NCBI RefSeq assembly: GCF_008040105.1
Contig: NZ_VRMG01000009.1
Coordinates: 186,001 to 250,000 of the forward strand
From: Lacisediminihabitans profunda
GTDB lineage: Bacteria > Actinomycetota > Actinomycetes > Actinomycetales > Microbacteriaceae
Length of the DNA: 64,000 nucleotides
Reading direction: 5' to 3'
The notes under the pieces are model-generated. The model was not told the DNA's origin, ran no database searches, and worked only from the letters and a program-made list of their open reading frames with translations. A program made the position numbers and the translations under genes. Within the stretch, counting starts at the first letter, position 1; each line of letters starts with the position of its first letter. Below, one piece after another: positions 36,974-60,153 of the stretch.

Positions 36974-37681
36974 TCAGGTGACGCGCACTCCGCGGTCGAC
37001 GTAGATGCTGGTGCCGGAGATGCCGCGGTTGCGCAGCAGGAACTGGGTGGCATCCACGACATCGACCATGGTGGCGAGCTGGTGTCCGGGAGTGCGCGAG
37101 CGGTGTCCGTCGAGGACTGCCGCGGGCTTGCCTGCCCAAAACGGGCTGTCGCCGATGATCCCGGGGTGCAGGGCGTTGACCCGGATCGGGGCGAGTTCGA
37201 GGGCGAGAGTGGTCGTCATGCCCTCGACGCCGCCGTTGATCGTCGAGACGGTGGTGGACCCCGGGTACGGGATGTCCTTGGCGCGGCCGCCGAAGAGAAC
37301 GATTCCCGTCTCGCCGCTCGGCTCGAGCCTGTCGATGAGGGTGTGGATCACCTCGGTGTAGCCCACGAGCTTGAGCACCACGAGCTGGGTTGCCCGCGCG
37401 ATGTCGTAGTCACGCACCGTGTTGGCGTCGCGTTCGATCGCGACGAGCACCAGCCCGTTCACCGTCCCCACCGTGGCGAGGCCCGCGCGGATGCCCTCTG
37501 GCCGGGAGAGATCGATCGCGACGCCCGTCGCGCGCTCACCGAGGGAGGATGCGACCTCCTGCGCCCGGGCCAGGTCGCGCCCCGAGAGCACCACCCGGTC
37601 GCCACGCGCGACCACGTCCCTGGCGATCTCGAGGCCGATGCCGGAGGTGCCCCCGATGACGACGATCGTCCTGTCGCTCAC
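36974..37681 (-). CDS. SDR-fold protein lacking the catalytic Tyr and Lys
   Basis: This 235-residue classical short-chain dehydrogenase fold has cofactor motif GGTSGIG near residue 10. Where active enzymes read YxxxK before GGVEGxT, this protein reads VSTINGGVEGMT, so Tyr is replaced by Val and Lys by Asn. It may be a non-catalytic SDR, or use other residues. The stop codon faces the end of the GbsR-like gene, and the start overlaps the ketopantoate-reductase-like gene by ATGA, which places it in that operon. Confidence 0.82.
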   Translation of the reverse strand: MSDRTIVVIGGTSGIGLEIARDVVARGDRVVLSGRDLARAQEVASSLGERATGVAIDLSRPEGIRAGLATVGTVNGLVLVAIERDANTVRDYDIARATQLVVLKLVGYTEVIHTLIDRLEPSGETGIVLFGGRAKDIPYPGSTTVSTINGGVEGMTTTLALELAPIRVNALHPGIIGDSPFWAGKPAAVLDGHRSRTPGHQLATMVDVVDATQFLLRNRGISGTSIYVDRGVRVT

Positions 37682-38709
37682 AGGGCACGCGTCCCGAGAA
37701 GCAGATCGACGTTGGAGGGGTCGGCCGCGAGCGTGCCGGCCTCGATACGACGGGCGAGCATCACCGTGCGCTCGTTGGCCGGCGCCGATCCACCCTGTTT
37801 CTTCTGCAGTTCGACCACGAGTCCGTTGACTTCATCCACTTCGGCGCGCCTTCCTTTCATCCAGTCTTGTAGCACGGTCGTTCGGGTGTCCGGCAAGGAG
37901 AAATGGTTCCTCACCATGCCGAGCAGATCCTCGGCGTATTGGTCGGGCCCAGTGACGTCGTCCTGGGTCATCCCGAAGATGGGGACGAGGGTGATCCCGT
38001 TGGCGACGGCCACCCTGGCCGCCTCGCGGCCACACTCGATCATGAAGTCGAGAACCCCCGGCAGGTTCATCGCGTCCTCGAGCGGAAGGTTCAGGATGGC
38101 GGACGGCACGAGTTCGCCGGCATTGGCGATCAGCTTCATCCATTTGGCCGAACGGATGTCGTCCGAGACCTCGACGGTGCCCGCATGGCTGAGCACGCGC
38201 TGCACCTCCACGGCCCGACCCGCGTTGCTCGGATCGAAAGACCCGACGGCGAACCACGCCTTCGAGGGCGGAGTCTGGCGGTTGACGATCCCGGGCTCGA
38301 ACATGTTGGAGGCCATCTCGATCACGCCGCCGATGGTGCGCTCCGGTCCGATGATCGAGGCCATGTCGTCGATGCTCATGCCGTTCTGCAGCCCGACGAC
38401 GAGCCCGTCCGGCTTGACGAGAGGCTTGATGAGTTCACAGGCCCAACGCGTGTCGTATGCCTTCGTGAGGAGAAACACGATGTCGAACTGGTCGCGCAGG
38501 GTGGCGACCTCGCACAGGTGGTACACGGTGACGGGCGTGATCACCGTCTCGTCCGGCATCCGCACCTCGATGCCGCGTTCCCGCATCGCCTTGACGTGGG
38601 CCGGCCACTGCTCGATGAACGTGACGTCGAGTCCGGCCCGGATGAGATCTGCGCCGATGCCCGCGCCCTGCGCTCCGGTTCCGACGACCGCGATCTTCTG
38701 TGTCGGCAT
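37678..38709 (-). CDS. ketopantoate reductase (PanE/ApbA)-family dehydrogenase 1
   Basis: This 343-residue dehydrogenase has the Rossmann motif GTGAQG at 10-15 and the C-terminal helical domain of PanE enzymes. The conserved catalytic Lys region is present as SAKWMKLIANAG. PanE reduces 2-oxo acids with NADPH, and many family members act on other substrates. A second copy lies directly upstream (38771-39814) with long shared stretches such as IEQWPAHV and CEVATL, so the pair arose by duplication. Both sit beside a catabolic locus rather than pantothenate genes. Confidence 0.85.
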   Translation of the reverse strand: MPTQKIAVVGTGAQGAGIGADLIRAGLDVTFIEQWPAHVKAMRERGIEVRMPDETVITPVTVYHLCEVATLRDQFDIVFLLTKAYDTRWACELIKPLVKPDGLVVGLQNGMSIDDMASIIGPERTIGGVIEMASNMFEPGIVNRQTPPSKAWFAVGSFDPSNAGRAVEVQRVLSHAGTVEVSDDIRSAKWMKLIANAGELVPSAILNLPLEDAMNLPGVLDFMIECGREAARVAVANGITLVPIFGMTQDDVTGPDQYAEDLLGMVRNHFSLPDTRTTVLQDWMKGRRAEVDEVNGLVVELQKKQGGSAPANERTVMLARRIEAGTLAADPSNVDLLLGTRAL

Positions 38710-38770
38710 GAGGCCTCCTCGCCCATATGTGCAGTTATCCTACACGTTTCGTACAGTGACACAACACAAG

Positions 38771-39814
38771 CTAGGCCCTGTCCCGCTCGGAAATCAACTC
38801 CAGCAGAACGACGAGGTTGTCGAGTCCCGGCGCGAGTTCGCCTCGCTCGATCCGGTGGGCCACCTCTACCACGGAGCTGTTGACGGGGGTGGGTACACCC
38901 GTTCTGGACCCGGCGGCGACGATGTGGCCGTTCAGGTCGTCGACCTCGCTGTGCCGCCCCTTCGTCCAGTCCTGCAGAACGGTGGTGGTCGCCCCGGGAA
39001 GCACGAACCCCGCGTAGAGCCTGTCGAGTAGTGTCTCGACGACCGTCTCCGGTCGGCTGATCTCGGATGGCTGGAGACCGAAGATGGGCAGGATGGGGTG
39101 GCCGAGCGCCAGGCCGGTGGCGAGGGCCTCCTGGCCGGCGCGGATCATCAGTTCGCGCATGCCATCGACCGCGAGGGCATCGAGCATCGGCGCCCCCAGA
39201 ATCGCCGTCGTGACCAGCACGGTCGAGTTACTCACGAGCTTCATCCATTTGGTGGCGAGGATGTCGTCGACGCGGGCGACGGTGCCGGAGTGGCCGAGGA
39301 TGTCGGCGACACGCTCCTCGTGATGCGCGGCCTCGTCGGTGAGGGCGCCGACCGCGAACCACGACCTCGCCGGACCCGAGTGGCGGTGCACGAGGCCGGG
39401 CTCGTACATGGTGGAGGAGATCTCGATGACCGTTCCCATCGTGCGGTGCGCCCCGACCACCTCCGCGATGGTGTCGGTGGTCATGCCGTTCTGGACCCCG
39501 GCCACCACTCCGTCCGCGGCCAGGTACGGCTCGATCAGCTGGGTCGCCCACCGCGTGTCGTAGGCCTTCATCAGAAGCAGCACAACATCGAATGGGCGTT
39601 TGAGGGTGGCCACCTCGCACAGGTGCATGGTGCGCGGCTTCACGTGCAGCGTGGTCTCGGGCATCTCGATCGTGAGGCCGCCGGCACGCATCGCCTCGAC
39701 GTGTGCCGGCCACTGCTCGATGAGGGTGACGTCGAGTCCGTCGCGGATCAGGTCCGCCCCGATGGAGGCCCCATTGGCCCCCGATCCGAGTATGGCGATC
39801 TTCGGTTCGGACAC
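38771..39814 (-). CDS. ketopantoate reductase (PanE/ApbA)-family dehydrogenase 2
   Basis: This 347-residue paralogue of the downstream gene has ILGSGANGASIGADL at the N-terminus, KAYDTRW in the middle, and ATKWMKLVSNS around the catalytic Lys. The GTG at 39814 was chosen because it opens the Rossmann strand. Longer frames to 40060 have no conserved sequence. It is divergent from the first amidohydrolase gene, with a 299-base shared promoter region. Sixty bases separate it from the first copy, so that copy may have its own promoter. Confidence 0.85.
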   Translation of the reverse strand: MSEPKIAILGSGANGASIGADLIRDGLDVTLIEQWPAHVEAMRAGGLTIEMPETTLHVKPRTMHLCEVATLKRPFDVVLLLMKAYDTRWATQLIEPYLAADGVVAGVQNGMTTDTIAEVVGAHRTMGTVIEISSTMYEPGLVHRHSGPARSWFAVGALTDEAAHHEERVADILGHSGTVARVDDILATKWMKLVSNSTVLVTTAILGAPMLDALAVDGMRELMIRAGQEALATGLALGHPILPIFGLQPSEISRPETVVETLLDRLYAGFVLPGATTTVLQDWTKGRHSEVDDLNGHIVAAGSRTGVPTPVNSSVVEVAHRIERGELAPGLDNLVVLLELISERDRA

Positions 39815-40053: not shown

Positions 40054-40082
40054 TGGACAAACCTCCCGGTGGACAATGTAAA
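40054..40082 (+). promoter_or_regulatory. putative promoter of the amidohydrolase operon
   Basis: TGGACA (40054-40059), a 17-base spacer and TGTAAA (40077-40082) precede the first amidohydrolase by 31 bases. GAGGAGGA forms a good ribosome binding site just before its ATG. The rest of the 299-base gap to the divergent dehydrogenase shows no palindrome I would call, although TGAACAG occurs at 40038-40044. Confidence 0.5.
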
Positions 40083-40113
40083 GTGAGGCTGAAATTCTCA
40101 ACGAGGAGGATCC

Positions 40114-41553
40114 ATGGTCACCAGCCCCAACACAGTCCGTCCGGACGACTTCACCCCCGGTCGGCCCGTCGTGTTCCGAAACGCGACGGTCATCACGGTC
40201 GACGCGCAGGGAATCATCCCCGGCGGCGATGTCCTGATCGCCGACGACACGATCGTCGCCGTCGGCAAGTCCCTCCCGGTGCCCGAAGGCACGGTCGAGA
40301 TCGATGCCTCCGGCGGAATCCTCATGCCGGGCATGGTCGACACGCACCGCCACATGTGGCAGACCGCCCTGCGCGGCTACGGCGGCGACTGGGCGCTCAG
40401 CCAGTACTTCGTCTTCTACTACCTTCAGCACGGACAGGTCTTCCGGCCGGAGGACATCTATGCCGGCAACCTGCTCTCCGCCCTCGAGTCCGTCGACACG
40501 GGAGTCACGACCACGCTCGACTGGTCGCACGCGCTGCGCACCCCCGAGTATGCGGATGCCGCCCTGCAGGCCTTCGAGGAGATCCCCGGTCGATTCGTGC
40601 TCGGCTACGGTAACTACCTCGGCGCCCCCTGGGAGTGGACTGCTGACCCGATCTTCCGCTCCTGGGTGAAGAAGTTCTCGGGCAGCGACATGCTCGGGCT
40701 CCAGATCGCGTTCGACGTGCCGGACTCCGAGGACTTCCCGGAGAAGGCCGCGTTCGACTTCGCCCGGGACAACGGCCTGCGCGCCACGACCCATGCCGGG
40801 GTGTGGGGGGCGACCACCGACGTCGGCCTCGACCACATGTACAAGGCCGGAGTCATGACCGACCAGATCACCTATGTGCACGCCGCGACACTCTCCTCCG
40901 ACAGCTATCACAAGATCGCGGCGACCGGCGGGACCGTCTCCGTCTCCACCGAGAGCGAGCAGAGCGCCGGACAGGGCTACCCGTCGACGTGGGAACTGCG
41001 CAAGTACGGCATCCCCGCCTCGCTCTCCATGGACACGAGCGTGTGGTGGAGCGCTGACTACTTCTCGGCGATGCGCGCCACGCTCAGCGCCGACCGCTCA
41101 CGCGACCACCTCGAGGCCCACGCCAAGGGGGAGACCGTCAACGTCAATCAGCTTCGCGCGGAGGATGTGATCTGGATGGCCACCATGGGGGGCGCCAAGT
41201 CGCTCGGCATGGAGGACAAGATCGGCTCGATCACCCCGGGCAAGAAGGCCGACCTGCTGCTGATCAAGAACGACCAGTCGCCGGCCATGACCCCCATCCT
41301 CAACCCCACGGTGCACGTCGTCTACCAGGCGGGCACCGCCGACATCCACACCGTGGTCGTCAACGGTCGAGTGCTCAAGTTCGACGGCAAGCGCATCGGA
41401 CTCGACATCGCTCCGGCCCGCGACGCCGTGGCGAAGTCGGTGGAGTACGTGCGCTCCCAGCTTGGCGAGCAGGCGTGGGAAGAGGGCATGCATCCAGAGC
41501 TCACCCCCACCGAGCGCATCCCGAACCCCTACGGATACCAGGACGCCGAGTGA
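40114..41553 (+). CDS. COG0402 amidohydrolase/deaminase 1 (TrzA-like)
   Basis: This 479-residue metal-dependent hydrolase of the cytosine/guanine deaminase and s-triazine hydrolase group has the HxH metal pair H78/H80 in VDTHRHMWQ. Further ligand His residues lie in ATTHAGVWG and YVHAATL, and the catalytic Asp in SLSMDTSVW. A C-terminal composite strand ends GKKADLLLI, then VNGRVLK. Such enzymes hydrolyse C-N bonds of N-heterocycles. It heads the operon with two further amidohydrolases. All three share the opening DTHRHxWQ but are strongly diverged elsewhere, which suggests different substrates or steps. Confidence 0.88.
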   Translation: MVTSPNTVRPDDFTPGRPVVFRNATVITVDAQGIIPGGDVLIADDTIVAVGKSLPVPEGTVEIDASGGILMPGMVDTHRHMWQTALRGYGGDWALSQYFVFYYLQHGQVFRPEDIYAGNLLSALESVDTGVTTTLDWSHALRTPEYADAALQAFEEIPGRFVLGYGNYLGAPWEWTADPIFRSWVKKFSGSDMLGLQIAFDVPDSEDFPEKAAFDFARDNGLRATTHAGVWGATTDVGLDHMYKAGVMTDQITYVHAATLSSDSYHKIAATGGTVSVSTESEQSAGQGYPSTWELRKYGIPASLSMDTSVWWSADYFSAMRATLSADRSRDHLEAHAKGETVNVNQLRAEDVIWMATMGGAKSLGMEDKIGSITPGKKADLLLIKNDQSPAMTPILNPTVHVVYQAGTADIHTVVVNGRVLKFDGKRIGLDIAPARDAVAKSVEYVRSQLGEQAWEEGMHPELTPTERIPNPYGYQDAE

Positions 41554-41584: not shown

Positions 41585-41917
41585 ATGATCGCCCATGTGG
41601 CAGTCTTCACCTTCGATTCGGAGATGACCGAGGAGCGAGCGGGCGCGCTCGCCGAGGAGTTGCGCGCCATGGCCGCGAGCCTTCCGTCGATCAAGCGCTA
41701 CGCTGCCGGGCCGAACCTGCGGATGCGGCCGGGCGGCGCGGACTTCGCGGTGATCGCGCTCGTCGAGGACCAGGCGGGCATCGATGCCTACCTCGACTCG
41801 CCTGATCACGTCGATCTCGTGGCGAAGAGCATCGCACCGTTTCTGGTGCAACGTCAGGCCGTCCAGCTCGAGGTGCCGGAAGACTGGGCACCGCTCTGGG
41901 CCGAGGGTCAGCCATGA
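41585..41917 (+). CDS. Dabb (stress-responsive A/B barrel) domain protein
   Basis: This 110-residue dimeric alpha-beta barrel protein starts MIAHVAVFTFDSEMTEERAG and continues with a strand FAVIALVEDQAGIDAYLDSPDH and a C-terminal strand VQLEVPEDW. Dabb proteins act as small lyases or cyclases in some catabolic pathways. Its role here is unknown, but it lies inside the amidohydrolase operon and overlaps the alcohol dehydrogenase start by ATGA. The ATG at 41585 opens the first strand. Confidence 0.82.
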   Translation: MIAHVAVFTFDSEMTEERAGALAEELRAMAASLPSIKRYAAGPNLRMRPGGADFAVIALVEDQAGIDAYLDSPDHVDLVAKSIAPFLVQRQAVQLEVPEDWAPLWAEGQP

Positions 41918-42987
41918 AGGCGGCGGTCTACCGCGGCATGCGCGACGTGCAGATCCAGGACTGGCCGGCGCCGGCCCCCGCGCCGGGAGAGGTGCTCATC
42001 CGCATCGGTGCCGCCGGCATCTGCGGATCCGACGCCGCCGAGTTCTCCCTGGGGCCGCAGCTCATCACGCAGGACGAATCGGGTCACGTCGACCCCGTCG
42101 TCCTGGGGCATGAGTTCGCGGGCACCATCGAGGCCATCGGCGAGGGAGTCACCGGCTTCGAGATCGGCGCCCGGGTCGTCTGCGGTGCCGGAATCTCGTG
42201 CGGCGAGTGCCTCATGTGCCGTCGTGGGCGCACCAACCTCTGCAGCAAGTACCACACCGTCGGTCTGCACAGGGATGGCGGCCTCGCGGGCTTCGTGGCG
42301 GTACCCGCCTCGATCGTGTACGACGCGACGGCCTCCGGGCTGCCGCTCGACACGCTTGCCCTCGCCCAGCCCATGGCCGTCGCCGTGCACGCCGTGGGCC
42401 GCAGCGGGCTGACCGCCGGACGGGATGCCGTGGTGGTCGGAGTGGGGGGCATCGGGGCCTTCATCACCTATGCCGCCGTCGCGACAGGCGCGCGGGTGCT
42501 CGTCGTCGACCTCGATCCGGCGCGACTGGAACTGGCCACGACCCTCGGCGCCTTCGCAACGCTCACGGCGGGGGAGGCGACGCTCTCGGATCGACTCGCC
42601 GAACTCGGCATGCACGCGGAGGTCTTCTTCGAGGTGAGCGGTTCGGCGCCCGGGCTCGACTCCGTGCTCGCCGCGGCCCAGCCCGGGGCGGTGATCGTGC
42701 CGGTGGGTATCCAGAAGCGGCCGCCCACCGAGCCGCTCGGCAAGTGGACCCTCCGGGAGTACACGATCGTGGGCACCGTGGCCCTCACCTTCGCGACCGA
42801 CCTGCCGGAGGCCGTGCGCCTGCTCGGCCTGCGACCGGACTGGACGGATTTCACGCGCGAGGTCATCCCGCTGGAGTCCCTCGTCGACGACGGTCTAGAG
42901 CCGCTGGTCGCCGGGCACTCCCGGCAGATCAAGACGCTCGTCGATCCCTGGATCTCGGCCCCACGGCCGCCGGTACACCACAGCTAG
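41914..42987 (+). CDS. zinc-dependent alcohol dehydrogenase (sorbitol/butanediol DH-like)
   Basis: This 357-residue medium-chain dehydrogenase/reductase has the catalytic zinc ligands Cys in GICGSDAAEF and His-Glu in GHEFAG. The structural zinc lobe has four Cys from CGAGISCGECLMCRRG to NLC, and the NAD motif is GVGGIG. It oxidises a secondary alcohol to a ketone, as in the L-threonine, sorbitol and 2,3-butanediol dehydrogenases. Its position between two amidohydrolases suggests it processes an alcohol released by hydrolysis. Its stop lies 22 bases before the next amidohydrolase. Confidence 0.88.
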   Translation: MKAAVYRGMRDVQIQDWPAPAPAPGEVLIRIGAAGICGSDAAEFSLGPQLITQDESGHVDPVVLGHEFAGTIEAIGEGVTGFEIGARVVCGAGISCGECLMCRRGRTNLCSKYHTVGLHRDGGLAGFVAVPASIVYDATASGLPLDTLALAQPMAVAVHAVGRSGLTAGRDAVVVGVGGIGAFITYAAVATGARVLVVDLDPARLELATTLGAFATLTAGEATLSDRLAELGMHAEVFFEVSGSAPGLDSVLAAAQPGAVIVPVGIQKRPPTEPLGKWTLREYTIVGTVALTFATDLPEAVRLLGLRPDWTDFTREVIPLESLVDDGLEPLVAGHSRQIKTLVDPWISAPRPPVHHS

Positions 42988-43009: not shown

Positions 43010-44437
43010 ATGCGCACCCTGATCAAGAACGCGGCCGTCGTCACGATGGACAAGACGCTCGGCGACTTCGAGCGGGCGGACATCCTGATCGACGAGGGCA
43101 CCATCGTGAGGGTGGCGCCGGGCATCGAGGCGGACGCGGAGATCATCGACGCGTCCACGATGATCGCCATGCCCGGAATGGTCGACACGCACCGCCACAC
43201 CTGGCAGACCGCCCTGCGCGGGATCCTCGCCGACGGCAACATCCCGGACTACCTCCGCGGCATCCGGCTGCAGATGGCGCCCCGCTACCGCCCGCAGGAC
43301 ATGTATGTGGGCAACTACCTGGGTGCCCTGGACGCCCTCAACAGCGGCGTGACGACCCTCGTGGACTACTGCCACAACATCCTCGACCCTGACTGCGCCC
43401 ACGCGGCGGTGACCGGGCTCAAGGATGCGGGAATCCGCGGTCTCTACGGGCACGGTCTGACCCCGGTGACCGAGAACACCTGGTCCCAGGCCAGGGGCGG
43501 AATCGCCGGCTCGGCCGATCCGGCGAACTTCTCGACTCGCGAGAAGCTCGCCCGCGAGATTCGCGACCAGCACTTCTCGGACAACTCGATCCTGCGGTTC
43601 GGCATCGCGCCGCAGGAGCTGACGATCACCCCCGTCGCCGACGTCGCGATGGAGTTCCGCTTCGCCCGCGAACTCGGCGCCAGGATCACCACGCACGCCA
43701 ACCAGGTGATGGTGCGCCAGCTCTTCCAGGATGTCGAGGTGTTCGCGGCGAACGACCTGCTCGGCGACGACCTCCTGCTCGTGCACTGCACGTTCAACAC
43801 CGAGCACGAGTGGGAGCTGCTCCGAGACTCCGGCGTCATGGTCTCGGTGTGTGCCGAGACCGAGATGCAGATGGGCATGGGCTTCCCGGTGATCCGCGAG
43901 GTCACAGACAACACGCCGGGACCGAGCCTCGGGATCGACTGCGTGAGCGGATGCAGCGGAGACATGATCTCGCACAGCCGCTTCGTGCTGCAGGCGAGCC
44001 GCTGGCGCGCGGATGAACCGGGCTACCAGCGCATGGTCGCGCCGCAGGAGATGGCGTGGACGACTCACGACGCCCTCAGCTGGCTCACGGTCAACGGAGC
44101 GCGGGCGGCCGGCGTCTCGGACGTGGTCGGTTCCCTCACCCCGGGGAAGCGCGCCGACATCGTGCTTCTCGAGATGGGCGGAGTGAGCCAGGCGGGCTGG
44201 AACCGGCGCGAGCCGGGCGGAGCGATCATCGCGCAGGCGAACGCGGGAAACGTCGACACCGTGCTCGTCGACGGCCGCGTCGTCAAGCGTGGAGGCGCCC
44301 TCGTGCACGTGGATGTGCGGGCGGCGCTCGCCCAGCTTGAGGAGTCTCACAACTTCCTCTACGAGCAGATGGATGTTAACGGTGGCTTCATCCCCCAGCC
44401 TCCGATCGACATCCCGCTCTATCGAGAACGTGCTTAG
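43010..44437 (+). CDS. COG0402 amidohydrolase/deaminase 2
   Basis: This 475-residue amidohydrolase has H61/H63 in VDTHRHTWQ, ITTHANQVM and LLVHCTFN as further His ligands, and Asp in SLGIDCVSG. Distinctive Cys-rich segments (DYCHN, CVSGCSGD) separate it from copies 1 and 3. GAAGGAG precedes the ATG. The end of the gene is followed by a fresh promoter (44471-44499), so copy 3 can be transcribed separately. Confidence 0.87.
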   Translation: MRTLIKNAAVVTMDKTLGDFERADILIDEGTIVRVAPGIEADAEIIDASTMIAMPGMVDTHRHTWQTALRGILADGNIPDYLRGIRLQMAPRYRPQDMYVGNYLGALDALNSGVTTLVDYCHNILDPDCAHAAVTGLKDAGIRGLYGHGLTPVTENTWSQARGGIAGSADPANFSTREKLAREIRDQHFSDNSILRFGIAPQELTITPVADVAMEFRFARELGARITTHANQVMVRQLFQDVEVFAANDLLGDDLLLVHCTFNTEHEWELLRDSGVMVSVCAETEMQMGMGFPVIREVTDNTPGPSLGIDCVSGCSGDMISHSRFVLQASRWRADEPGYQRMVAPQEMAWTTHDALSWLTVNGARAAGVSDVVGSLTPGKRADIVLLEMGGVSQAGWNRREPGGAIIAQANAGNVDTVLVDGRVVKRGGALVHVDVRAALAQLEESHNFLYEQMDVNGGFIPQPPIDIPLYRERA

Positions 44438-44444
44438 TTCACTG

Positions 44445-53138: not shown

Positions 53139-53996
53139 GCCTCGGGTGACTTCGGCCATGGCTGACCAGTCGAGTCCGGCGAGGGACTCGGTGGCCAGGG
53201 CGGTCTCGAATCGGTCACGCAGGAGCGGGGCGCTCGGCAGCGTCACCCCGCCTTCTGCCGCGACCTCCTCGGCCAGTCCGAGATCCTTCAGGCCGAGGGC
53301 CATGGTGAAGCCGGGCGGGCTGTAGCGGCGCTCGGCGATGATCGAGCCATAGCCGGTGAACACCACGCCTCCGAAGAGGGTGCCGCCCAGCAGCTCGACG
53401 AAATCACTGGCGTCGATCTCGTGGGCCTCGACGAGGCTGATCGCCTCGCCCAGGGCCTGCATGGCGTGGATGATGGTGAAGTTCACGGCGATCTTGACGA
53501 CGTTGGCGCGGCGGGGCCGGTCGCCGAAGCGCCAGATCCGCGTGCTGAGCACCTCCAGGAACGGCTCGACGGCCCCGATCGCCTCCTCCGGCCCGGCAAC
53601 CAGGATGTTGAGCGCGCCGGCGGCCGCGACGGTGGGCCGACCGAGCACGGGCGACGCCACATAACGCAGGCCGGCGTCGAGGTGGATTCGCTCCAGCCGA
53701 TCGGCGGCCGCGGCGCTGATCGACGCCATGTTGACATGGATCCGATTCTCCGTCCCGCGAAGATTGTCGGCCGTGAGCAGGGCCTCGGCGGCCTCGTCAT
53801 TGGCGAGCATGGAGAAGGACACCGGAGCGGCCAGCGCCTCGGCCGGCGACGACGCCCGCGTGGCTCCGGCGGCGACGAGGGCCTCGATCGCCTCCTCTGA
53901 CCTGTTCCAGACCGTGACGGTGTGTCCGGCATCCACGAGTCGCCTCGCTATCGCCGATCCCATTGTTCCCAGGCCGATGAATCCCAGTCGTGCCAT
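53133..53996 (-). CDS. 3-hydroxyisobutyrate dehydrogenase-like NAD(P) oxidoreductase
   Basis: This 287-residue beta-hydroxyacid dehydrogenase has GLGTMG at 8-13, VASPVLGRPTVAAAG for the substrate loop, and the catalytic Lys in NVVKIAVNF near residue 167. The family oxidises 3-hydroxy acids to semialdehydes or reduces aldehydes such as succinic semialdehyde. It is followed upstream, one base away, by an aldehyde dehydrogenase. The two would oxidise a hydroxy acid to a semialdehyde and then to an acid. Confidence 0.88.
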   Translation of the reverse strand: MARLGFIGLGTMGSAIARRLVDAGHTVTVWNRSEEAIEALVAAGATRASSPAEALAAPVSFSMLANDEAAEALLTADNLRGTENRIHVNMASISAAAADRLERIHLDAGLRYVASPVLGRPTVAAAGALNILVAGPEEAIGAVEPFLEVLSTRIWRFGDRPRRANVVKIAVNFTIIHAMQALGEAISLVEAHEIDASDFVELLGGTLFGGVVFTGYGSIIAERRYSPPGFTMALGLKDLGLAEEVAAEGGVTLPSAPLLRDRFETALATESLAGLDWSAMAEVTRGH

Positions 53997-53997
53997 C

Positions 53998-55374
53998 TCA
54001 CGCCTCCCAGACGGTCTTGAGGTTGCAGAATTCGCGGATGCCCTCCGCGGCGAGTTCGCGCCCGAAGCCCGAGTTCTTGATGCCGCCGAACGGGAGCTCC
54101 GGGTAAGAGATCGTCATCCCGTTGAGGAAGACCGCCCCGGCCTCGATCTCCGACACGAACCGGGCCTTCTCCCGCTGGTCGGTGGTCCAGACGCTCGAAC
54201 TGAGACCGAAGTCGGTGACGTTCGCCAGGGCGATCGCGGAGTCGACGTCGTCGACGCGGTAGAGCGTCGCGACGGGGCCGAATGCCTCCTCGCGGTGAAG
54301 CCGCATCGACGCGGTGACTCCCGAGATCACGGTCGGTGGGTAGTACCAACCCACGCCCTCCGGCACGGCTCCGCCGGTGAGCGCGGTGGCGCCCCCGGTC
54401 AGCGCATCGTCGACCAGTTGGGCGAGCTCGTCCCGGCCGGCCGCCGTGGCGAGGGGCCCCACCTGGGTCTCCTCCCGCAGCGGATCGCCGACCCGGAGCG
54501 CACCCATGGCGGCGGTGAACAGCTCGGCGAACCGGTCATAGACGTCCGTGTGCACGATGAAACGCTTGGCGCTGATGCAGGACTGGCCGTTGTTGATTGT
54601 TCGGGCGGTCACCGCGGTGGCGACAGCGGCGGAGAGGTCAGCGCTCGGCATCACGATGAACGGATCGGACCCGCCCAACTCGAGCACGGACTTCTTCACC
54701 TGGGCGCCCGCGATGGAGGCCACCGACCGCCCTGCCGGCTCCGAGCCGGTGAGGGTCACGGCCTTGACCCGCGGGTCCTCGAGCACCGCCCGCACCTCGC
54801 CCGAGCCGATGAGCAGCGTGGAAAACGATCCGGCGGGGAAGCCTCCGCGGGCGAAGAGCGTGTCGAGGTAGAGCGCCGACTGCGGCACGTTCGAGGCGTG
54901 CTTGAGCACCCCGACGTTGCCGGCCATGAGAGCCGGGGCGGCGAACCGGATCACCTGCCAGAGCGGATAGTTCCACGGCATGACGGCGAGCACGATGCCG
55001 AGCGGCTCGTAACGGGAGAATGCGCGACTCGCGCCGAGGCTGCCCGGGTCGCCGAACACCTCGTCGCGCAGGAATTCCTCGGCGTGGTCGGCGTAGAAGC
55101 GCATGCCCTTGGCGCACTTGGCCGCCTCCGCGCGCGCGGCGCCGATCGGCTTGCCCATCTCGCGGGTCATGATGGTCGCGATCCGCTCGTTGTCATCGTC
55201 CAGCAGGTCCGCGGCGGCTCGCATCCAGCCGGCGCGATCGGCGAACGAGGTCCCGCGCAGCGCGAAGACGGCGGACTGGGCTCGAGCGAGTCGATTCTCG
55301 ATCTCCTGGGGTCCGTGGGGCTCGAAGGTCATTTCGACCTCACCGGTGGCGGGGTTGAGGGTGGCGATGGCCAT
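53998..55374 (-). CDS. NAD(P)-dependent aldehyde dehydrogenase (succinic semialdehyde DH-like)
   Basis: This 458-residue enzyme has oxyanion Asn in VMPWNYPLWQ (N134), general base E232 in LELGGSDPF, nucleophile C266 in NNGQSCISAKR, and a C-terminal LPFGGIKNSGFGRE. This signature set is typical of GabD/Sad enzymes that oxidise short-chain semialdehydes. The start was placed at ATG 55374, which opens MAIATLNPATGEV. It lies between the hydroxyacid dehydrogenase and a GntR regulator on the same strand. Confidence 0.9.
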   Translation of the reverse strand: MAIATLNPATGEVEMTFEPHGPQEIENRLARAQSAVFALRGTSFADRAGWMRAAADLLDDDNERIATIMTREMGKPIGAARAEAAKCAKGMRFYADHAEEFLRDEVFGDPGSLGASRAFSRYEPLGIVLAVMPWNYPLWQVIRFAAPALMAGNVGVLKHASNVPQSALYLDTLFARGGFPAGSFSTLLIGSGEVRAVLEDPRVKAVTLTGSEPAGRSVASIAGAQVKKSVLELGGSDPFIVMPSADLSAAVATAVTARTINNGQSCISAKRFIVHTDVYDRFAELFTAAMGALRVGDPLREETQVGPLATAAGRDELAQLVDDALTGGATALTGGAVPEGVGWYYPPTVISGVTASMRLHREEAFGPVATLYRVDDVDSAIALANVTDFGLSSSVWTTDQREKARFVSEIEAGAVFLNGMTISYPELPFGGIKNSGFGRELAAEGIREFCNLKTVWEA

Positions 55375-55409: not shown

Positions 55410-56096
55410 TCAGTTGGTCACGGGATCGAGGAACACGTCGGGATGCCGGGCAAGCTCCAGTCGCGTTCGACGGATGTGGCCGTACAGCACTCGTTCGGCC
55501 TCGTCCAGGTCGGAGCGGCGAATCGCGTGCACGAGCAGTTGGTGATCGTGGTGCACGCTGCGGTCGCCCTCCGAGCGGAACACCCGGGTGAAGGCCCGAC
55601 GGTAGTGCTGGGTGCGATTCCAGAGCTGTTCGACCATGTCGCCCAGCACGCTCGTGCGCGCCGCGGCGTAGCTGCCGAGGTGGAATTCCCGGTCCAGCGT
55701 GAGGAACTCCTCGATGTCGTCCGACCGCTCCATGGCATCCGCGAGGTACTGCAGGTGATCGATCTCCGGCTGCCCGAGGTCCGGAATCGAGTAGCGCAGA
55801 AGGAGGGGCTCGATTCTCTCCCGAATCTGATACATCTCCTCGCACTCCTCGAGGCCCAGCCGCGACACCCACGCTCCCGTGTTCGCCACGAGGGTGACGA
55901 GTCCCTCCGCCTCGAGGATGCGGAGCGCCTCGCGCACGGGGACGCGGCTCGCCCCGTGGCGGTCGGCGGCATCCTCTTGCCGGATGCGGGCGCCCGGCGC
56001 GTATTGGCCGGAGAGGATCGCCGTGCGCAGCTCGTTGGCGACCCGTTCACCGGCGCTGCCGGTGCGGGGGATGATGTCGGTCACGGTCCCCATCAT
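55410..56096 (-). CDS. GntR-family regulator (FCD domain)
   Basis: This 228-residue regulator has an N-terminal winged helix (VANELRTAILSGQYAPGARIRQEDAADRHGASRVPVREALRILEAEG) and an all-helical FCD ligand-binding domain whose metal-site positions include Asp and His (DREFHLGSYAAARTS, HHDHQLLVHAIRR). FCD regulators respond to carboxylic acids. ATG 56096 overlaps the VOC stop by ATGA, so I prefer it to the ATG three bases later. It likely binds the palindromes in front of the VOC and E1 genes. Confidence 0.87.
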   Translation of the reverse strand: MMGTVTDIIPRTGSAGERVANELRTAILSGQYAPGARIRQEDAADRHGASRVPVREALRILEAEGLVTLVANTGAWVSRLGLEECEEMYQIRERIEPLLLRYSIPDLGQPEIDHLQYLADAMERSDDIEEFLTLDREFHLGSYAAARTSVLGDMVEQLWNRTQHYRRAFTRVFRSEGDRSVHHDHQLLVHAIRRSDLDEAERVLYGHIRRTRLELARHPDVFLDPVTN

Positions 56097-56620
56097 TCCG
56101 CAGGACGCGCGGGGTGCCAGAGCTTCACGGGCGCGGTCGCCTCGTAGGCCTTGCCCTGCGGGTAGCTCACGAGTTCGAACTGCATTCCCCACGGGCTGCG
56201 AAAGTAGATCCAGCGTTGGCCGGTGCTGTGACTCGAACTGGCCGTGGGCTCCCCCATGACCTCCACGCCGCGACTCAGCAGGTAGGCCAGTGCCTCGTCG
56301 AAGTCGTCAACGTAGAAGGCGAGGTGGTGGCCGCCGATGTCGCTGTTGCGCGGCTCCGGCCGCTGGCCATCCGCCGCCTCGTACTGGAAGATCTCGAAGT
56401 TGGGTCCGAACCCGCAGCGGAAGAAGCGCAGTTCGCGCATCACGGTGCGGGGATGCACGCCCAGGTTGGTCTGCATCCAGTCGTCTGCGCGCTCGAACGG
56501 GCCGAGGGAGTAGACCAGTTCGCAGCCGATGACATCGACGAAGAAGCGCTCGGCCTCGTCGAGGTCGGGAACGGTGAACCCGATGTGCTCGGTTCCGCGC
56601 AGTCCTGGCAGACCCACCAT
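56093..56620 (-). CDS. VOC-superfamily (glyoxalase/dioxygenase fold) protein
   Basis: This 175-residue protein has two beta-alpha-beta-beta-beta modules, beginning RGTEHIGFTVPDLDEAERFF and then SDIGGHHLAFYVDDFDEALAYL, and ending SPWGMQFELVSYP. The His and Glu of these strands (HIGF, HHLAF, FELV) are the usual VOC metal ligands. Members are lactoylglutathione lyases, methylmalonyl-CoA epimerases or extradiol dioxygenases. GAGGAGGT precedes ATG 56620. It is co-translated with the GntR gene and divergent from the E1 gene. Confidence 0.85.
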   Translation of the reverse strand: MVGLPGLRGTEHIGFTVPDLDEAERFFVDVIGCELVYSLGPFERADDWMQTNLGVHPRTVMRELRFFRCGFGPNFEIFQYEAADGQRPEPRNSDIGGHHLAFYVDDFDEALAYLLSRGVEVMGEPTASSSHSTGQRWIYFRSPWGMQFELVSYPQGKAYEATAPVKLWHPARPAE

Positions 56621-56646
56621 CTCGACCTCCTCGCCGTTGATTGGAT

Positions 56647-56666
56647 CCAGTATTGCCGAATACTGG
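56647..56666. promoter_or_regulatory. palindrome in the VOC/E1 divergent promoter
   Basis: CCAGTATT-GCCG-AATACTGG is a perfect palindrome with eight-base arms, 27 bases upstream of the VOC start. A third CCAGTA half-site lies at 56687-56692. It is the strongest candidate operator for the GntR regulator encoded in the VOC operon. Confidence 0.55.
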
Positions 56667-56696: not shown

Positions 56697-56725
56697 TTGT
56701 GATTGGATTCAATCGGCGCTAACGT
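56697..56725 (+). promoter_or_regulatory. leaderless promoter of the E1-E2 operon with internal palindrome
   Basis: TTGTGA (56697-56702), 17 bases and TAACGT (56720-56725) end six bases before the A of the E1 ATG at 56732, and there is no Shine-Dalgarno, so the transcript probably starts at the start codon. A palindrome GATTG-GATT-CAATC (56701-56714) covers the spacer, and TGATTGGATYCA recurs at 56638 and 56700. A regulator bound there would shut the operon. Confidence 0.55.
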
Positions 56726-56731
56726 ACCCCC

Positions 56732-58921
56732 ATGCCGAAACAACGACGTTTAGAGACCGGTGCGCCATGGGTTGAGTTGGCCACCACCGCGCAGGACTGG
56801 AAAGAGGCCGATCCCGCGCTGCTGGCGACCATGCTCGGCCAGCTCCACCTGATCCGCGCGTTCGAAGAGACGGTTCTCGACCTCGCCGCGGAATCCCTCG
56901 TCCACGGACCCGCCCATTCGAGCATCGGCCAGGAGGGCGGCGCGGTCGGATCCATCGTCGGGCTGAGTTCATCGGATGCCGTGAACGGTTCGCACCGTGG
57001 CCACCACCAGTTCCTCGCCAAGGCGATCAACCACGTCAGCGGCGGTTCCCTCGAGCTCGGCACTCTCGTCACCCCGGCCATCCAGACGGTGTTGCAGCGC
57101 ACGCTGGCCGAGATTCTCGGCCTCGCGCAGGGCTACTGCCGGGGCCGAGGCGGCTCGATGCACCTGCAGTGGTTCGAGGCCGGCGCCCTGGGGACCAACG
57201 CGATCGTCGGCGGCGGCGCCCCGATGGCGGCCGGCAACGCCTGGGCCCAGAAGCACTCGGACACGCGTGATATCACCATCAACTACTTCGGCGATGGCGC
57301 GAGCCAGATCGGGTCGGTGCTCGAGTCGATGAACCTCGCGGCGGCCTGGAAGCTCCCGGTCTGTTTCTTCATCGAGAACAACATGTACGCCGTGGCCACC
57401 GAGATCAGCGAGAGCGTTGCCGACACCCGGCTGTCGGTGCGCGGGCAGGGCTTCGGGATTCCGAGTTGGCGGGTCGACGGCATGGACCCGCTCGCCGTGC
57501 ACCTGGCCATGACCCAGGCCGGGGAGATCATGCGCAATGGTGGCGGTCCCGCCATCGTCGAGGCCGAGGTCTATCGCTTCTTCCACCAGAACGGCCCATA
57601 CCCGGGAAGCGCCTTCGGCTATCGCAGCAAGGAGGAGGAGGCGCAGTGGCGTGCACGTGACCCGCTGCTGAAGATGGCCACCGAGATGACGAGACTCGGT
57701 CTGGCCGACGAGGCGCTCATCACCACCGTGCGCGAGCAGTCGCAGGCCGCCATGGCCGCCGCGGTCGCTCAGCTCATCGAGGCCGACCCGGAGAACACCG
57801 GAAAGCGTCGCATCCGTCCCGAGCTCTGGCCGGACACCTCCTTCGTGAACGTGGGTGTGCGTGGCGACGCCAGCGAGCTCGCCGCACTCGCCGTGCTCGA
57901 GCCGACCGGCTACGAGGGCGAATGGCGCGACGTGAAGTTCGTGGATGCCGTTGCCGCCGTCATGGATCGCCGCATGGAACAGGACCAGCGCATCGTCGTG
58001 CTCGGCGAAGACGTGCACCGGCTCAACGGCGGAACGAATGGCGCGACCAAGGGCCTCGCCAAGAAATACGGTCCCGACCGGGTGCTCGGCACTCCGATCA
58101 GCGAGAACGCCTTCACGGGCCTCGGCGGCGGACTCGCTCTCGACGGGCGATTCCGGCCGGTCATCGAGTTCATGTATCCGGACTTCATGTGGGTCGCCGC
58201 CGATCAGGTCTTCAACCAGATCGGCAAGGCCCGTCACATGTTCGGCGGCGACAACCCCGTTCCCCTCGTCTTGCGCACCAAGGTCGCGATGGGGTCCGGC
58301 TACGGTTCGCAGCACCTCATGGACCCAGCGGGCATCTTCGCGACGAGCCCCGGCTGGCGCATCGTCGCCCCGTCGACGGCCGCCGACTACGTCGGCCTGA
58401 TGAATGCCGCCCTCGCGCTGCAGGACCCCGTTCTCGTGATCGAGCACGTCGATCTGTACGGCATGGCCGACCGGGTTCCGGTCGGCGATCTCGACTATCA
58501 GCTGCCGTTCGGCAAGGCCGCCCTGCGCCGGGTGGGCGCCGAGGCAACGATCATCAGCTACCTCTCGATGGTGGCTCACTGCCTCGAGGCCGTCGAACAG
58601 ACCGGAATCGACGCGGATGTCATCGACCTGCGCTGGCTCGATCGCGCATCGATCGACTGGGACACGATCGGTGAGAGCGTCAAGAAGACCAACATCGTGC
58701 TCATCGTGGAGCAGGGCGCGCGCGGCACGTCCTACGGCGGCTGGCTCGCCGACGAGATCCAGCGCCGCTTCTTCGACTGGCTCGACCAGCCCGTCGAGAG
58801 AGTCACCGGCGGTGAGGCGAGCCCCAGCATCTCGAGGGTGCTCGAGCGAGCCGCGATCGCCGGCACCGAAGAGGTCGTCGCCGGCATCCAGACCATTCGC
58901 CGCGGAATGGGCGGTCGCTGA
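56732..58921 (+). CDS. 2-oxo acid dehydrogenase E1, alpha and beta subunits fused
   Basis: This 729-residue thiamine-diphosphate enzyme has an alpha-like half (about 1-360) with the TPP motif FGDGASQIGSV and FIENNMYAV, and a beta-like half (about 400-729) with VVLGEDVHRLNGG, the FTGLGGGLALDG region and VIDLRWL near the end. Pyruvate, acetoin and branched-chain dehydrogenases usually encode these as two genes. The fusion occurs in some actinobacteria. It decarboxylates a 2-oxo acid and passes the acyl group to the E2 encoded next, whose start shares one base with its stop. No E3 gene is present. Confidence 0.9.
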   Translation: MPKQRRLETGAPWVELATTAQDWKEADPALLATMLGQLHLIRAFEETVLDLAAESLVHGPAHSSIGQEGGAVGSIVGLSSSDAVNGSHRGHHQFLAKAINHVSGGSLELGTLVTPAIQTVLQRTLAEILGLAQGYCRGRGGSMHLQWFEAGALGTNAIVGGGAPMAAGNAWAQKHSDTRDITINYFGDGASQIGSVLESMNLAAAWKLPVCFFIENNMYAVATEISESVADTRLSVRGQGFGIPSWRVDGMDPLAVHLAMTQAGEIMRNGGGPAIVEAEVYRFFHQNGPYPGSAFGYRSKEEEAQWRARDPLLKMATEMTRLGLADEALITTVREQSQAAMAAAVAQLIEADPENTGKRRIRPELWPDTSFVNVGVRGDASELAALAVLEPTGYEGEWRDVKFVDAVAAVMDRRMEQDQRIVVLGEDVHRLNGGTNGATKGLAKKYGPDRVLGTPISENAFTGLGGGLALDGRFRPVIEFMYPDFMWVAADQVFNQIGKARHMFGGDNPVPLVLRTKVAMGSGYGSQHLMDPAGIFATSPGWRIVAPSTAADYVGLMNAALALQDPVLVIEHVDLYGMADRVPVGDLDYQLPFGKAALRRVGAEATIISYLSMVAHCLEAVEQTGIDADVIDLRWLDRASIDWDTIGESVKKTNIVLIVEQGARGTSYGGWLADEIQRRFFDWLDQPVERVTGGEASPSISRVLERAAIAGTEEVVAGIQTIRRGMGGR

Positions 58922-60153
58922 TGGCCACCGTCGTGCGGATGCCGGAGGTGCTCGCGGGCAGCGCCGAGGCGGCCATCCAGACCTGGCTGATCGCCGTCGG
59001 CCAGGAGGTCGCCGTCGGAATGCCTCTCGCGGAGGTGGAGACCGAGAAGGCGATCGTGGAATACGCCGCGGAGATGGCCGGAACGGTGCTCCAACTTCTG
59101 GTACCAGAGGGCGTGTCGGTCAAGGTTGGAGACCCGATCGCCGTTCTGGGGGAGAAGGGGGAGATCGTCGAGGTGCCCGGTCCCGAGTCCGTCGCGGGCG
59201 GTGCCGCCCCCGCTCCAGCCCCGACGACCACTGCACCGACAGCCGCCGAACCCGTGCCGTCGGCCGCCCGAGCGTTCATCAGCCCGCTCGTGCGCCGGCT
59301 CGCGAAGGAGCGTTCCCTCGACCTCTCGGCCGTCACGGGAACCGGCCCCGGTGGCCGGATCGTGCGTCGCGACATCGAGGGCATGACGGCCTCCGCGGCC
59401 CCCGCGGCAGAGCAGGTGTCCGCCGTTTCCGCGCCGCGGACGACGGAAGCCACCCTGGAATCGCCCACCGTGGTACCGCCCGTCGCGGTGCCGCACACCG
59501 CGATGCGGCGGGCGATCGCGCGTCGTCTCACCGAGAGCAAGTCGACGGTGCCGCACTTCTATCTCGTCGCGGATTGCCGGGTCGACCGGCTGGTGGCACT
59601 GCGCCGGGAGGTCAACGAGACCGCCACCACGAAGGTGTCCATCAACGACTTCGTGATCAAGGCGGCGGCCGCCGCCTTCATCGATGTGCCAGAGGCCAAT
59701 GCCACCTGGGACGAGAGCGCCATCATGCGCTATTCGACAGTTGACATGTCGGTCGCGGTGGCGATCGATGGCGGACTGGTGACCCCCGTGCTTCGCTCGG
59801 TCGAACGGATGACGCTCAGCACCGTTGCCCGCACCGTCGTCGACCTTGCCGAGCGTGCGCGGTCGGGTCGGCTCAGGCAGCACGAGCTCGAGGGCGGCAG
59901 CTTCGCCGTCTCGAACCTCGGCATGTACGGCGTGACGGAGTTCTCCGCCATCATCAACCCTCCCCAATCGGCGATCCTCGCGGTGGGTCTGGCCCGCCAG
60001 GAGGCGGTGGTCGTCGATGGGCAGATCGAGGTCGGCACCATCATGACCGTCACGCTCTCGGCGGACCACAGGGTGCTCGATGGGGCGCTCGCCGCGCGTT
60101 GGCTGGCCGCGTTCGTGCGACACGTCGAAAACCCGCTCGGCATGCTCGTGTAG
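58921..60153 (+). CDS. 2-oxo acid dehydrogenase E2 (dihydrolipoamide acyltransferase)
   Basis: This 410-residue acyltransferase has one lipoyl domain (lipoyl Lys43 in EVETEKAIVE) and an Ala/Pro-rich linker. A peripheral subunit-binding domain (ISPLVRRLAKERSLDLSAV, GTGPGGRIVRRDI) and the catalytic core with H383 and D387 in SADHRVLDG follow. It transfers the acyl group from E1 to CoA. Together with the fused E1 it forms a two-gene complex that would use a shared E3 (dihydrolipoamide dehydrogenase) made elsewhere. The substrate oxo acid is unknown. It is probably the product of the upstream catabolic genes. Confidence 0.92.
   Translation: MATVVRMPEVLAGSAEAAIQTWLIAVGQEVAVGMPLAEVETEKAIVEYAAEMAGTVLQLLVPEGVSVKVGDPIAVLGEKGEIVEVPGPESVAGGAAPAPAPTTTAPTAAEPVPSAARAFISPLVRRLAKERSLDLSAVTGTGPGGRIVRRDIEGMTASAAPAAEQVSAVSAPRTTEATLESPTVVPPVAVPHTAMRRAIARRLTESKSTVPHFYLVADCRVDRLVALRREVNETATTKVSINDFVIKAAAAAFIDVPEANATWDESAIMRYSTVDMSVAVAIDGGLVTPVLRSVERMTLSTVARTVVDLAERARSGRLRQHELEGGSFAVSNLGMYGVTEFSAIINPPQSAILAVGLARQEAVVVDGQIEVGTIMTVTLSADHRVLDGALAARWLAAFVRHVENPLGMLV

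Follow-up and report, generated by a model that had tools for sequence, protein, structure and literature searches.

A conserved, modular catabolic locus of Lacisediminihabitans profunda and a tentative dioxygenase-free route for ring compounds

The locus analyzed here lies at positions 36974-60153 of a stretch of 64,000 nucleotides from Lacisediminihabitans profunda (the window; G000:C161:186001-250000 in a genome of 4.0 Mb). It combines an importer of the CUT2 type, three amidohydrolases (AH1 to AH3), several dehydrogenases, a protein with the M24 peptidase fold and the E1 and E2 components of a 2-oxoacid-dehydrogenase-like complex. Our analysis revealed that this actinobacterial locus is a real, conserved set of uptake and breakdown genes, apparently co-regulated, and that it is modular, with a central block (M24, HIBADH, E1/E2) served by several interchangeable importers. 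As to its role, we tentatively favor the possibility that the locus degrades ring-shaped, probably hydroxylated compounds by a dioxygenase-free route of the hydroxyquinol type. The initial annotation of this DNA could name no known pathway that uses the gene set, and none was found to match in the present analysis either; no description of the gene set was found in the open-licence papers searched.

Gene content

Family scans (Pfam/NCBIfam) covered the locus genes and the M13 gene behind them. All the gene types initially named between 36974 and 60153 were confirmed with Pfam support, with one correction to the reported "fused E1 plus E2": the alpha and beta parts of E1 are indeed joined in a single gene, but E2 is encoded on its own (58921-60153). 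The genes and operator-like sites are as follows.

36974-37681, minus strand: SDR-family oxidoreductase (Pfam adh_short/adh_short_C2; best related-locus matches 63-77%)
37678-38709, minus strand: PanE1, PanE/ApbA-like dehydrogenase (Pfam ApbA, ApbA_C)
38727-38747 and 38749-38769: two palindromic operator-like sites upstream of PanE1 (13.7 and 13.3 bits)
38771-39814, minus strand: PanE2, PanE/ApbA-like dehydrogenase (Pfam ApbA, ApbA_C)
40076-40096: operator-like palindrome, AH1 promoter (17.9 bits)
40114-41553, plus strand: AH1, COG0402-type amidohydrolase (Pfam Amidohydro_1)
41585-41917, plus strand: Dabb-domain protein (Pfam Dabb)
41914-42987, plus strand: zinc alcohol dehydrogenase, threonine/inosose dehydrogenase-like (Pfam ADH_N, ADH_zinc_N)
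43010-44437, plus strand: AH2, COG0402-type amidohydrolase (Pfam Amidohydro_1)
44435-44455: operator-like palindrome, AH3 promoter (18.8 bits)
44572-45945, plus strand: AH3, COG0402-type amidohydrolase (PRK08204)
46023-47021, plus strand: CUT2 importer permease (Pfam BPD_transp_2)
47023-48201, plus strand: CUT2 substrate-binding lipoprotein, the receptor (Pfam Peripla_BP_4)
48204-50699, plus strand: fused CUT2 double ATPase and second permease (Pfam ABC_tran in two stretches, BPD_transp_2)
50727-51443, minus strand: XRE-cupin transcriptional regulator (Pfam HTH_3, Cupin_2)
51655-51675: operator-like palindrome, M24 promoter (28.9 bits)
51723-53123, plus strand: M24-fold protein, DddP/creatinase-like (Pfam Peptidase_M24)
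53133-53996, minus strand: 3-hydroxyacid dehydrogenase, HIBADH family (Pfam NAD_binding_2/NAD_binding_11)
53998-55374, minus strand: aldehyde dehydrogenase (ALDH), succinic-semialdehyde-dehydrogenase type (NCBIfam PRK09406)
55410-56096, minus strand: GntR/FCD transcriptional regulator (Pfam GntR, FCD)
56093-56620, minus strand: VOC-family protein (Pfam Glyoxalase_4)
56637-56654 and 56699-56716: two TTGGATCCAA-type operator-like sites (23.3 and 22.1 bits)
56732-58921, plus strand: fused E1 alpha/beta, thiamine-diphosphate dehydrogenase (Pfam E1_dh, Transket_pyr, Transketolase_C)
58921-60153, plus strand: E2 lipoyl acyltransferase (Pfam Biotin_lipoyl, E3_binding, 2-oxoacid_dh)

Conservation, co-occurrence and modularity

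The arrangement exceeds chance, since it is kept in other genera and its genes co-occur in a sample of 299 genomes of the family. Loci in three other genera were recognized by a receptor 67-72% identical to that of the window; most genes are kept in them, in a rearranged order. The 299 genomes were drawn out of a larger group, kinship being ignored in the p-values, and were searched at E<=1e-90 for the receptor, E<=1e-120 for M24 (two subfamilies), E<=1e-200 for E1 and E<=1e-100 for the AH3 family. The receptor was found in 8 genomes and AH3 at 70% identity or more in exactly the same 8, all of which carry M24 and E1. M24 is present in 55 genomes and E1 in 66, and both occur together in 52 vs 12.1 expected, again with kinship ignored. 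M24 genomes without E1 are G050, G182 and G343, and G182 has a truncated E1 at a contig end near M24. Conversely, 14 E1 genomes have no M24 at the threshold used, and locus annotation puts M24 beside E1 in G066, G231, G247 and G319. The AH3 family is accompanied by E1 in 13/13 genomes and by M24 in 12/13; the thirteenth, G066, has M24 just beside AH3 by annotation.

Separable modules were also evident. AH3 lies within about 6 kb of M24 in five of the eight receptor genomes, and in G054, G163 and G273 the AH3 module and the M24 module are on different contigs or far apart, each being seen separately. Because the receptor and AH3 are split from M24/E1 in three of eight genomes and the central block occurs with other importers, the locus consists of separable modules and is not one fixed pathway. 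The question raised initially, whether the importer-amidohydrolase part and the M24/ALDH/E1-E2 part occur independently, thus has a divided answer: the receptor with AH3 never occurs in a genome without M24 and E1, but the parts can be distant and the M24/E1-E2 block is often found with other importers. The same separation in three of eight genomes, together with a different operator at the E1/E2 promoter, is what could be cited for two unrelated pathways adjacent by accident. This seems highly improbable in view of the joint presence in all eight genomes, the common motif over AH1, AH3, PanE1 and M24, and the occurrence of E1 in 52 of 55 M24 genomes. We consider it very likely that the locus is one functional unit, and synteny and co-occurrence both support the earlier view of it as a single large unit of catabolism served by its own CUT2 importer.

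Annotation of related loci covered the best 80 of at least 475 confirmed M24-relative loci and further loci of the family. It was based on similarity to a reference set; many loci are cut by contig ends, and the gene caller used misses M24 in L126. A recurrent core comprises M24, HIBADH, VOC, GntR, E1 and E2, often with PanE and the XRE-cupin regulator, although not all genes are present everywhere. In the best 80 loci, AH1, AH2 and AH3 genes number 17, 10 and 15, two of the AH3 genes matching at 36% and 50% and another being partial; HIBADH was found 59 times, E1 43 times, and receptors of type A and type B 14 and 16 times, respectively. At least six importers accompany the M24 core. CUT2 type A, which is that of the window, comes with AH2/AH3; type B with three zinc alcohol dehydrogenases, an SDR, a VOC and a PRISE-like gene; type C with AH1, an SDR, a bicupin and an MFS gene; type D, seen in Herbiconiux, with hydantoinase A/B; and type F with M24 proteins of the second subfamily. 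Importers of the branched-chain-amino-acid type complete the set.

Operator-like sites and candidate regulators

An operator matrix was derived from 38 sites in 50 M24-promoter regions of loci L031-L170, with the window left out and its near relatives included, and has the consensus TGTTnAGyTATnCTnnACA. Across the 64-kb window it exceeds 10 bits at five places (M24, AH3, AH1 and two at PanE1), all intergenic and all within the locus. The next matches fall under the threshold, at 9.9 bits (position 301) and 8.8 bits (39875, near PanE2). None of 1000 column-permuted matrices reached five locus matches, the maximum being three. Shuffling the window five times gave 0, 0, 0, 0 and 1 match above 10 bits, and that single match also exceeded 12 bits, which makes this an unfavorable control. 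When the core pattern was searched in the whole 4.0-Mb genome, the M24 site had zero mismatches and the AH3 site was one of only two places within one mismatch; a reversed control pattern matches equally often (two forward and two reverse each), so that only the placement is informative. In related loci, where palindromes can count on both strands, the same motif precedes M24, type-B and type-C importers or their neighbors, AH2/AH3, Dabb and AH1/bicupin. Given its gene adjacency, the XRE-cupin regulator is the putative binder of the M24-type operator.

The E1 promoter carries a different element. A TTGGATCCAA-type matrix was built from 142 sites in the VOC-E1 regions of 69 related loci, in all of which the VOC gene is divergent from E1, again with the window left out. 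Strong sites of this type occur in the window in the VOC-E1 region only, the next best reaching 10.3 and 10.2 bits elsewhere; a GntR-type operator as control of the whole locus was rejected on this ground. The GntR protein is likely the binder of the TTGGATCCAA-type sites. In a few relatives such an operator precedes ALDH (G054, G319) or the ECH/CMD genes just ahead of M24 (G238, G182), which links the same control to these genes.

A cluster of TTGGATCCAA-type palindromes was also observed around a GntR gene elsewhere in the genome (G000:C139:187800-210700; L171, L172). Its neighbors, typed by eye, are a Rieske-like protein, a glutamine-synthetase-like protein and an oligopeptide-type importer, and the cluster might represent a further pathway for aromatic amines, controlled by a related regulator.

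The M24 protein and the amidohydrolases

Of the five metal ligands of M24 metallopeptidases (D, D, H, E, E), the M24 protein keeps four, placed at D281, H358, E391 and E407 by alignment with a prolidase. The fifth ligand, an Asp, is replaced by Cys292 in 28/28 family rows of both subfamilies. Cysteine also occupies this position in the Phaeobacter and Paenarthrobacter homologs, and an unrelated M24 protein in L111 has Asp. The structural model, of modest quality (mean pLDDT 68.6), is closest to the DMSP lyase DddP (4b28), followed by prolidases and creatinase, and the fold matches include DoeA. The protein thus has the pita-bread fold in common with the non-peptidase M24 enzymes creatinase, DoeA and DddP, but falls under the NCBIfam cut-offs of the latter two, DddP being the best match at 108.2 vs 600 bits and DoeA reaching 57.7 vs 613. 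No creatinase model is among its 12 NCBIfam matches, and the PDB search returned one creatinase chain at 28.5 bits.

The fold and family ranking would suit a DddP-like lyase of a beta-substituted carboxylate, whose 3-hydroxypropionate-type product would be handled by HIBADH and ALDH. Nevertheless, we regard this as very unlikely, as the score is far under the cut-off, the conserved metal Asp is Cys, and the amidohydrolases and E1/E2 would be left unaccounted for. A second M24 gene (about 56-60% identical) is present in the same genome outside the window (G000:C139:139193-141377; L149:8194-10378), with its own HIBADH-like gene, a LacI-type regulator and a branched-chain-amino-acid-type importer.

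The metal site of the amidohydrolases is intact, as initially described: both His of HxH, the strand-6 His and the strand-8 Asp are kept in 27/27 aligned rows, and the strand-5 His in 26/27, row L106 being gapped there and perhaps misaligned. The HxxE Glu is the catalytic glutamate of COG0402 deaminases. This residue, typical of COG0402 deaminases and chlorohydrolases and visible in the AtzA and 4f0r reference alignments, is missing in 27/27 rows; the window has D in AH3 (HVGD), Q in AH2 (HANQ) and Val in AH1. Against PRK08204 (cut-off 391 bits) AH1 scores 378.7, under the cut-off, and AH2 and AH3 score 431.6 and 537.6, over it. Among the best 25 matches listed for each protein, this unnamed subfamily is the sole NCBIfam cut-off passed by AH2 and AH3, and no named deaminase or hydrolase equivalog cut-off is reached by AH1-AH3. 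The AH3 model (pLDDT 85.8) is closest to the deaminase homolog 4f0s and AtzA. Fold and metal site are therefore common with the COG0402 deaminases and triazine hydrolases (AtzA, TrzN, SAH/MTA deaminase), but AH1-AH3 lack the Glu and, among the matches listed, stay under the equivalog cut-offs.

These features bear on the role first suggested for the locus, in which a guanidino compound or N-heterocycle would be taken up and then deaminated or ring-opened step by step, with M24 acting as a creatinase-like C-N hydrolase. In its favor are the proximity of the AH3 model to deaminases and triazine hydrolases, the creatinase and DoeA fold matches, and the presence, close to M24 in certain loci, of genes of the RidA, amidase, hydantoinase A/B or NCS1 type, which leaves some room for nitrogen compounds. 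None of these nitrogen-type neighbors is among the genes of the window locus, however, the deaminase Glu is absent throughout, M24 is far below DoeA and DddP with no creatinase model matched, and nine of 12 plasmid loci with amidohydrolase homologs have a ring-type context (see below). This logic of deamination does not hold up well, and we consider it unlikely. The oxidation and acyl-CoA logic of the same proposal fared better, as alcohol and aldehyde dehydrogenases and a lipoyl, 2-oxoacid-dehydrogenase-like end step are present.

Importer, dehydrogenases and E1/E2

The feature set of a CUT2 importer is complete, with a double ABC_tran ATPase, a permease of the BPD_transp_2 family and a Peripla_BP_4 receptor. 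Alignment with 15 homologs puts the start of the receptor at 47023, followed by a lipoprotein signal whose last residues are LTGC; solved receptors match it weakly, and PDB entries 8WL1-8WL9 weakly match PanE2 and the receptor. TIGR00745 (a subfamily model, not an equivalog; cut-off 141.35 bits) is just missed by PanE1 (140.7) and passed by PanE2 (148.2). Among the matches listed, the zinc alcohol dehydrogenase reaches no NCBIfam cut-off, its matches including the scyllo-inosose dehydrogenase IolM (147 bits, cut-off 450), and the HIBADH-family protein reaches no NCBIfam cut-off either. ALDH passes the succinic semialdehyde dehydrogenase equivalog PRK09406 with 762.9 vs 730 bits. E1 alpha/beta domains and a lipoyl E2 with an E3-binding domain make up the features of a 2-oxoacid dehydrogenase complex, and the NCBIfam equivalogs of pyruvate dehydrogenase type stay under cut-off (E1 235 vs 394, E2 406 vs 445). 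Judging from homologs, E1 most likely starts at 56732.

A further CUT2 importer was observed at G000:C85:40000-53604 (L039), its receptor sharing about 40% identity with that of the window. Next to it are SDRs, an ALDH, an FMO-like monooxygenase and an alpha/beta hydrolase, and comparable sets are present in L040 and L041 (1.8- and 1.4-Mb genomes of the family). Directly behind E2 in the window lies an M13 (PepO-like) endopeptidase gene (60228-62207), with no sign of membership in the locus.

Gene neighborhoods of homologs and the ring reading

The ring reading is based on the sulfonamide-degradation (sad) neighbors of M24 and on a back end of dioxygenase and maleylacetate reductase that replaces M24/E1/E2 behind an orthologous importer. 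The hydroxyquinol pathway consists of an intradiol dioxygenase and maleylacetate reductase. Plasmid records were searched at E-value limits of 1e-40 (M24), 1e-60 (AH3) and 1e-150 (E1), giving 49, 83 and 25 matches, respectively. From the matches listed, 6 M24, 7 E1 and 12 amidohydrolase neighborhoods were picked by hand, their gene tables being incomplete; one of the seven E1 neighborhoods is without annotation and one has an E1 just 48% alike. Among the 12 amidohydrolase loci (of 83 records), AH3-type genes adjoin both an intradiol dioxygenase and a maleylacetate reductase in five, from four genera, namely Bosea (two strains), Skermanella, Cupriavidus necator N-1 and Paraburkholderia D15. Four more have another ring-type context, as judged by annotation, making nine of 12 in total. 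Further gene types are shared with the window: Bosea and Skermanella carry a CUT2 importer, Bosea and Cupriavidus have Dabb or YciI genes, and a HIBADH-like gene was seen in Bosea vaviloviae, Skermanella and Cupriavidus. The dioxygenase and maleylacetate reductase belong to those loci, whereas the window locus has M24 and E1/E2 instead.

An exchange of back ends between species was observed. Phaeobacter, Pacificitalea and Tritonibacter hold a CUT2 importer, SDRs, M24, E1, E2 and a succinic semialdehyde dehydrogenase (SSADH) in one block. Phaeobacter and Skermanella are reciprocal-best for the receptor (64%), SDR (68%) and ThuA (72%). Behind these orthologous importers Phaeobacter has M24/E1/E2/E3/SSADH, and Skermanella has an AH3-type gene, a HIBADH-like gene, an intradiol dioxygenase (catechol-type by Pfam), a malonic semialdehyde reductase and a maleylacetate reductase.

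The genes for an acyl-CoA-dehydrogenase-like monooxygenase and the SulR/SadC flavin reductase of Paenarthrobacter R1 are followed by ECH, HTH, RidA, M24, HIBADH, SDR and lipoamide dehydrogenase genes, with M24, HIBADH and RidA within about 5 kb of the flavin reductase. The gene order is the same in Microbacterium SDZm4 and BR1. The same M24, HIBADH, XRE-type and SDR genes as in the window locus are thus found near the sad monooxygenase and flavin reductase genes, with a different importer and front end, and the window locus is without a sad-type monooxygenase. The sad cluster is placed on the R1 record CP127116.1, and 1,2,4-trihydroxybenzene is given as the SadB product (PMC10873849). In loci L109, L110 and L180 (Microbacterium, Paenarthrobacter), M24, HIBADH, XRE-type and RidA genes were seen close behind sulfonamide-degradation monooxygenase/SulR genes.

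Other M24 loci offer further context. L089 and L141 hold MhpA-like hydroxylases over the subfamily cut-off. In Streptomyces sp. MH60 (L087:2043-21392), M24, E1, E2, ALDH and XRE-cupin share one stretch with a DesA/LigM-like aromatic O-demethylase and an AidB-like metallo-hydrolase, neither of which reaches its NCBIfam cut-off; an MBL-fold protein of this locus matched, among the 299 genomes, only the genome of the window, at 32% (E<=1e-30). On a small plasmid of Paenarthrobacter SD-1, E1, E2, VOC, amidase, RidA, HIBADH and M24 lie together. PF00775, the intradiol dioxygenase family, has no match in 12 of 28 M24 genomes (hand-picked of 55), including G342 and G348, in which the receptor, AH3, M24 and E1 are present. 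Neither an intradiol dioxygenase nor a maleylacetate reductase is among the genes of the window locus, and the PF00775 matches of this genome are on contig C65, not on C161.

A number of observations weigh against the ring reading. Three of the 12 hand-picked amidohydrolase loci have no ring context, and among four of the five dioxygenase-linked homologs compared at strand 5, HVGD is kept in Cupriavidus N-1 but not in the other three. The window receptor is just 25-26% identical to those of Phaeobacter and Skermanella and its HIBADH 27-28%; because of this receptor identity, the back-end swap holds for a related front end and not for that of the window. The Phaeobacter and Skermanella HIBADH proteins are themselves only 28% alike. 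In the sad loci, M24 could be an unrelated native neighbor, and SadA and SadB are not told apart there. The Rhodococcus opacus 1CP plasmid has M24 with XRE and VOC genes and no E1 within 25 kb, and five proteobacterial E1 loci have no M24 in their annotated stretches. PF00775 is matched elsewhere in 16 of the 28 M24 genomes, by a family that is not hydroxyquinol-specific. Sugars and polyols are the usual cargo of CUT2 importers, and type-B front ends (three zinc alcohol dehydrogenases, SDR, PRISE-like) resemble polyol oxidation more. Fused E1 proteins 70-71% identical to that of the window were observed on plasmids of Pseudomonas oryzihabitans and Caballeronia (L177, L178), with VOC, E2 and lipoamide dehydrogenase and no M24 in the annotated stretch.

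An alternative is a pathway for polyols or cyclitols that passes through no aromatic stage. The imported substrate would be a branched or cyclic polyol, dehydrogenases would convert it to a cyclic 1,3- or 1,2-dione, M24 or an amidohydrolase would hydrolyze it, and HIBADH, ALDH and E1-E2 would finish. The CUT2 importer, the many dehydrogenases and the IolM match (far from its cut-off) fit this scheme, as do shikimate-dehydrogenase annotations in four of six annotated proteobacterial E1 loci (one exception having the E1 just 48% alike) and, in some type-B loci, a protein that on visual inspection resembles a TIM-barrel isomerase and has no Pfam match. Such a pathway leaves the intradiol dioxygenase, maleylacetate reductase, sad, MhpA-like and DesA-like neighbors unaccounted for, and appears to us somewhat unlikely.

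Proposed route and related systems

According to the ring reading, the island would consist of peripheral and central parts under common operators. The CUT2 importer would take up a small polar ring compound, whose hydroxyls may be oxidized by the zinc alcohol dehydrogenase, the SDR and the PanE-type dehydrogenases, and the three amidohydrolases, as putative entry enzymes, would hydrolyze or dehydrate it toward a polyhydroxylated six-membered ring. The candidate branch-point ring is most likely 1,2,4-trihydroxybenzene (hydroxyquinol) or a closely related quinone or keto form. M24 might then hydrolytically open this ring, either as such or after a first oxidation, with no ring-cleaving dioxygenase involved. 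HIBADH and the SSADH-type ALDH would process a fragment that is a hydroxy acid or a semialdehyde, and a 2-oxo or diketo fragment could be turned into an acyl-CoA by E1/E2 together with the cellular E3. Our confidence in both the ring reading and the trihydroxybenzene/M24 step is lowered by the distant relationship of the swapped front end to that of the window, and the latter specific step is doubtful.

A chemical parallel exists in an anaerobe. The hydroxyhydroquinone route of Azoarcus uses a 2-oxoacid-dehydrogenase-like complex, Bqd. Azoarcus anaerobius is an anaerobic proteobacterium, unlike the actinobacterium studied here. Its route, likened to ours by description, proceeds by oxidative dearomatization of hydroxyhydroquinone followed by hydrolysis, with no dioxygenase (PMC10470551). 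The benzoxazinoid-degradation (bxd) cluster of Microbacterium LMB2, another ring-catabolic cluster, has ALDH, VOC, an NAD(P)-dependent oxidoreductase and two regulators as common gene types, but begins with the lactonase BxdA, unlike the window locus (PMC11297187). Riboflavin/lumichrome catabolism was considered and rejected as an identity, since the P450, Rieske dioxygenase and xanthine oxidase given in the available portion of its report are not in the window locus (PMC12746152).

Significance

In its widest form, which we hold to be just as doubtful as the trihydroxybenzene/M24 step, the proposal is that M24-HIBADH-E1/E2 would be a widespread oxygen-independent route for 1,2,4-trihydroxybenzene or hydroxybenzoquinone in aerobes, evolutionarily exchangeable with hydroxyquinol dioxygenase and maleylacetate reductase. 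A Cys-modified peptidase-fold enzyme would open the ring and a pyruvate-dehydrogenase-like complex would cleave the diketo acid to an acyl-CoA, while importer/enzyme cassettes, including three Glu-less amidohydrolases, would let a variety of natural ring compounds enter it, all under the control of one operator. If this is true, a central catabolic pathway of many actinobacteria and some alphaproteobacteria has been overlooked, its key enzyme being annotated as an Xaa-Pro peptidase, and the M24 and amidohydrolase variants would represent new chemistries in two well studied folds. The operators and swappable cassettes offer a direct way to the substrates, as the receptors can be screened and each cassette predicts a chemical entry point.

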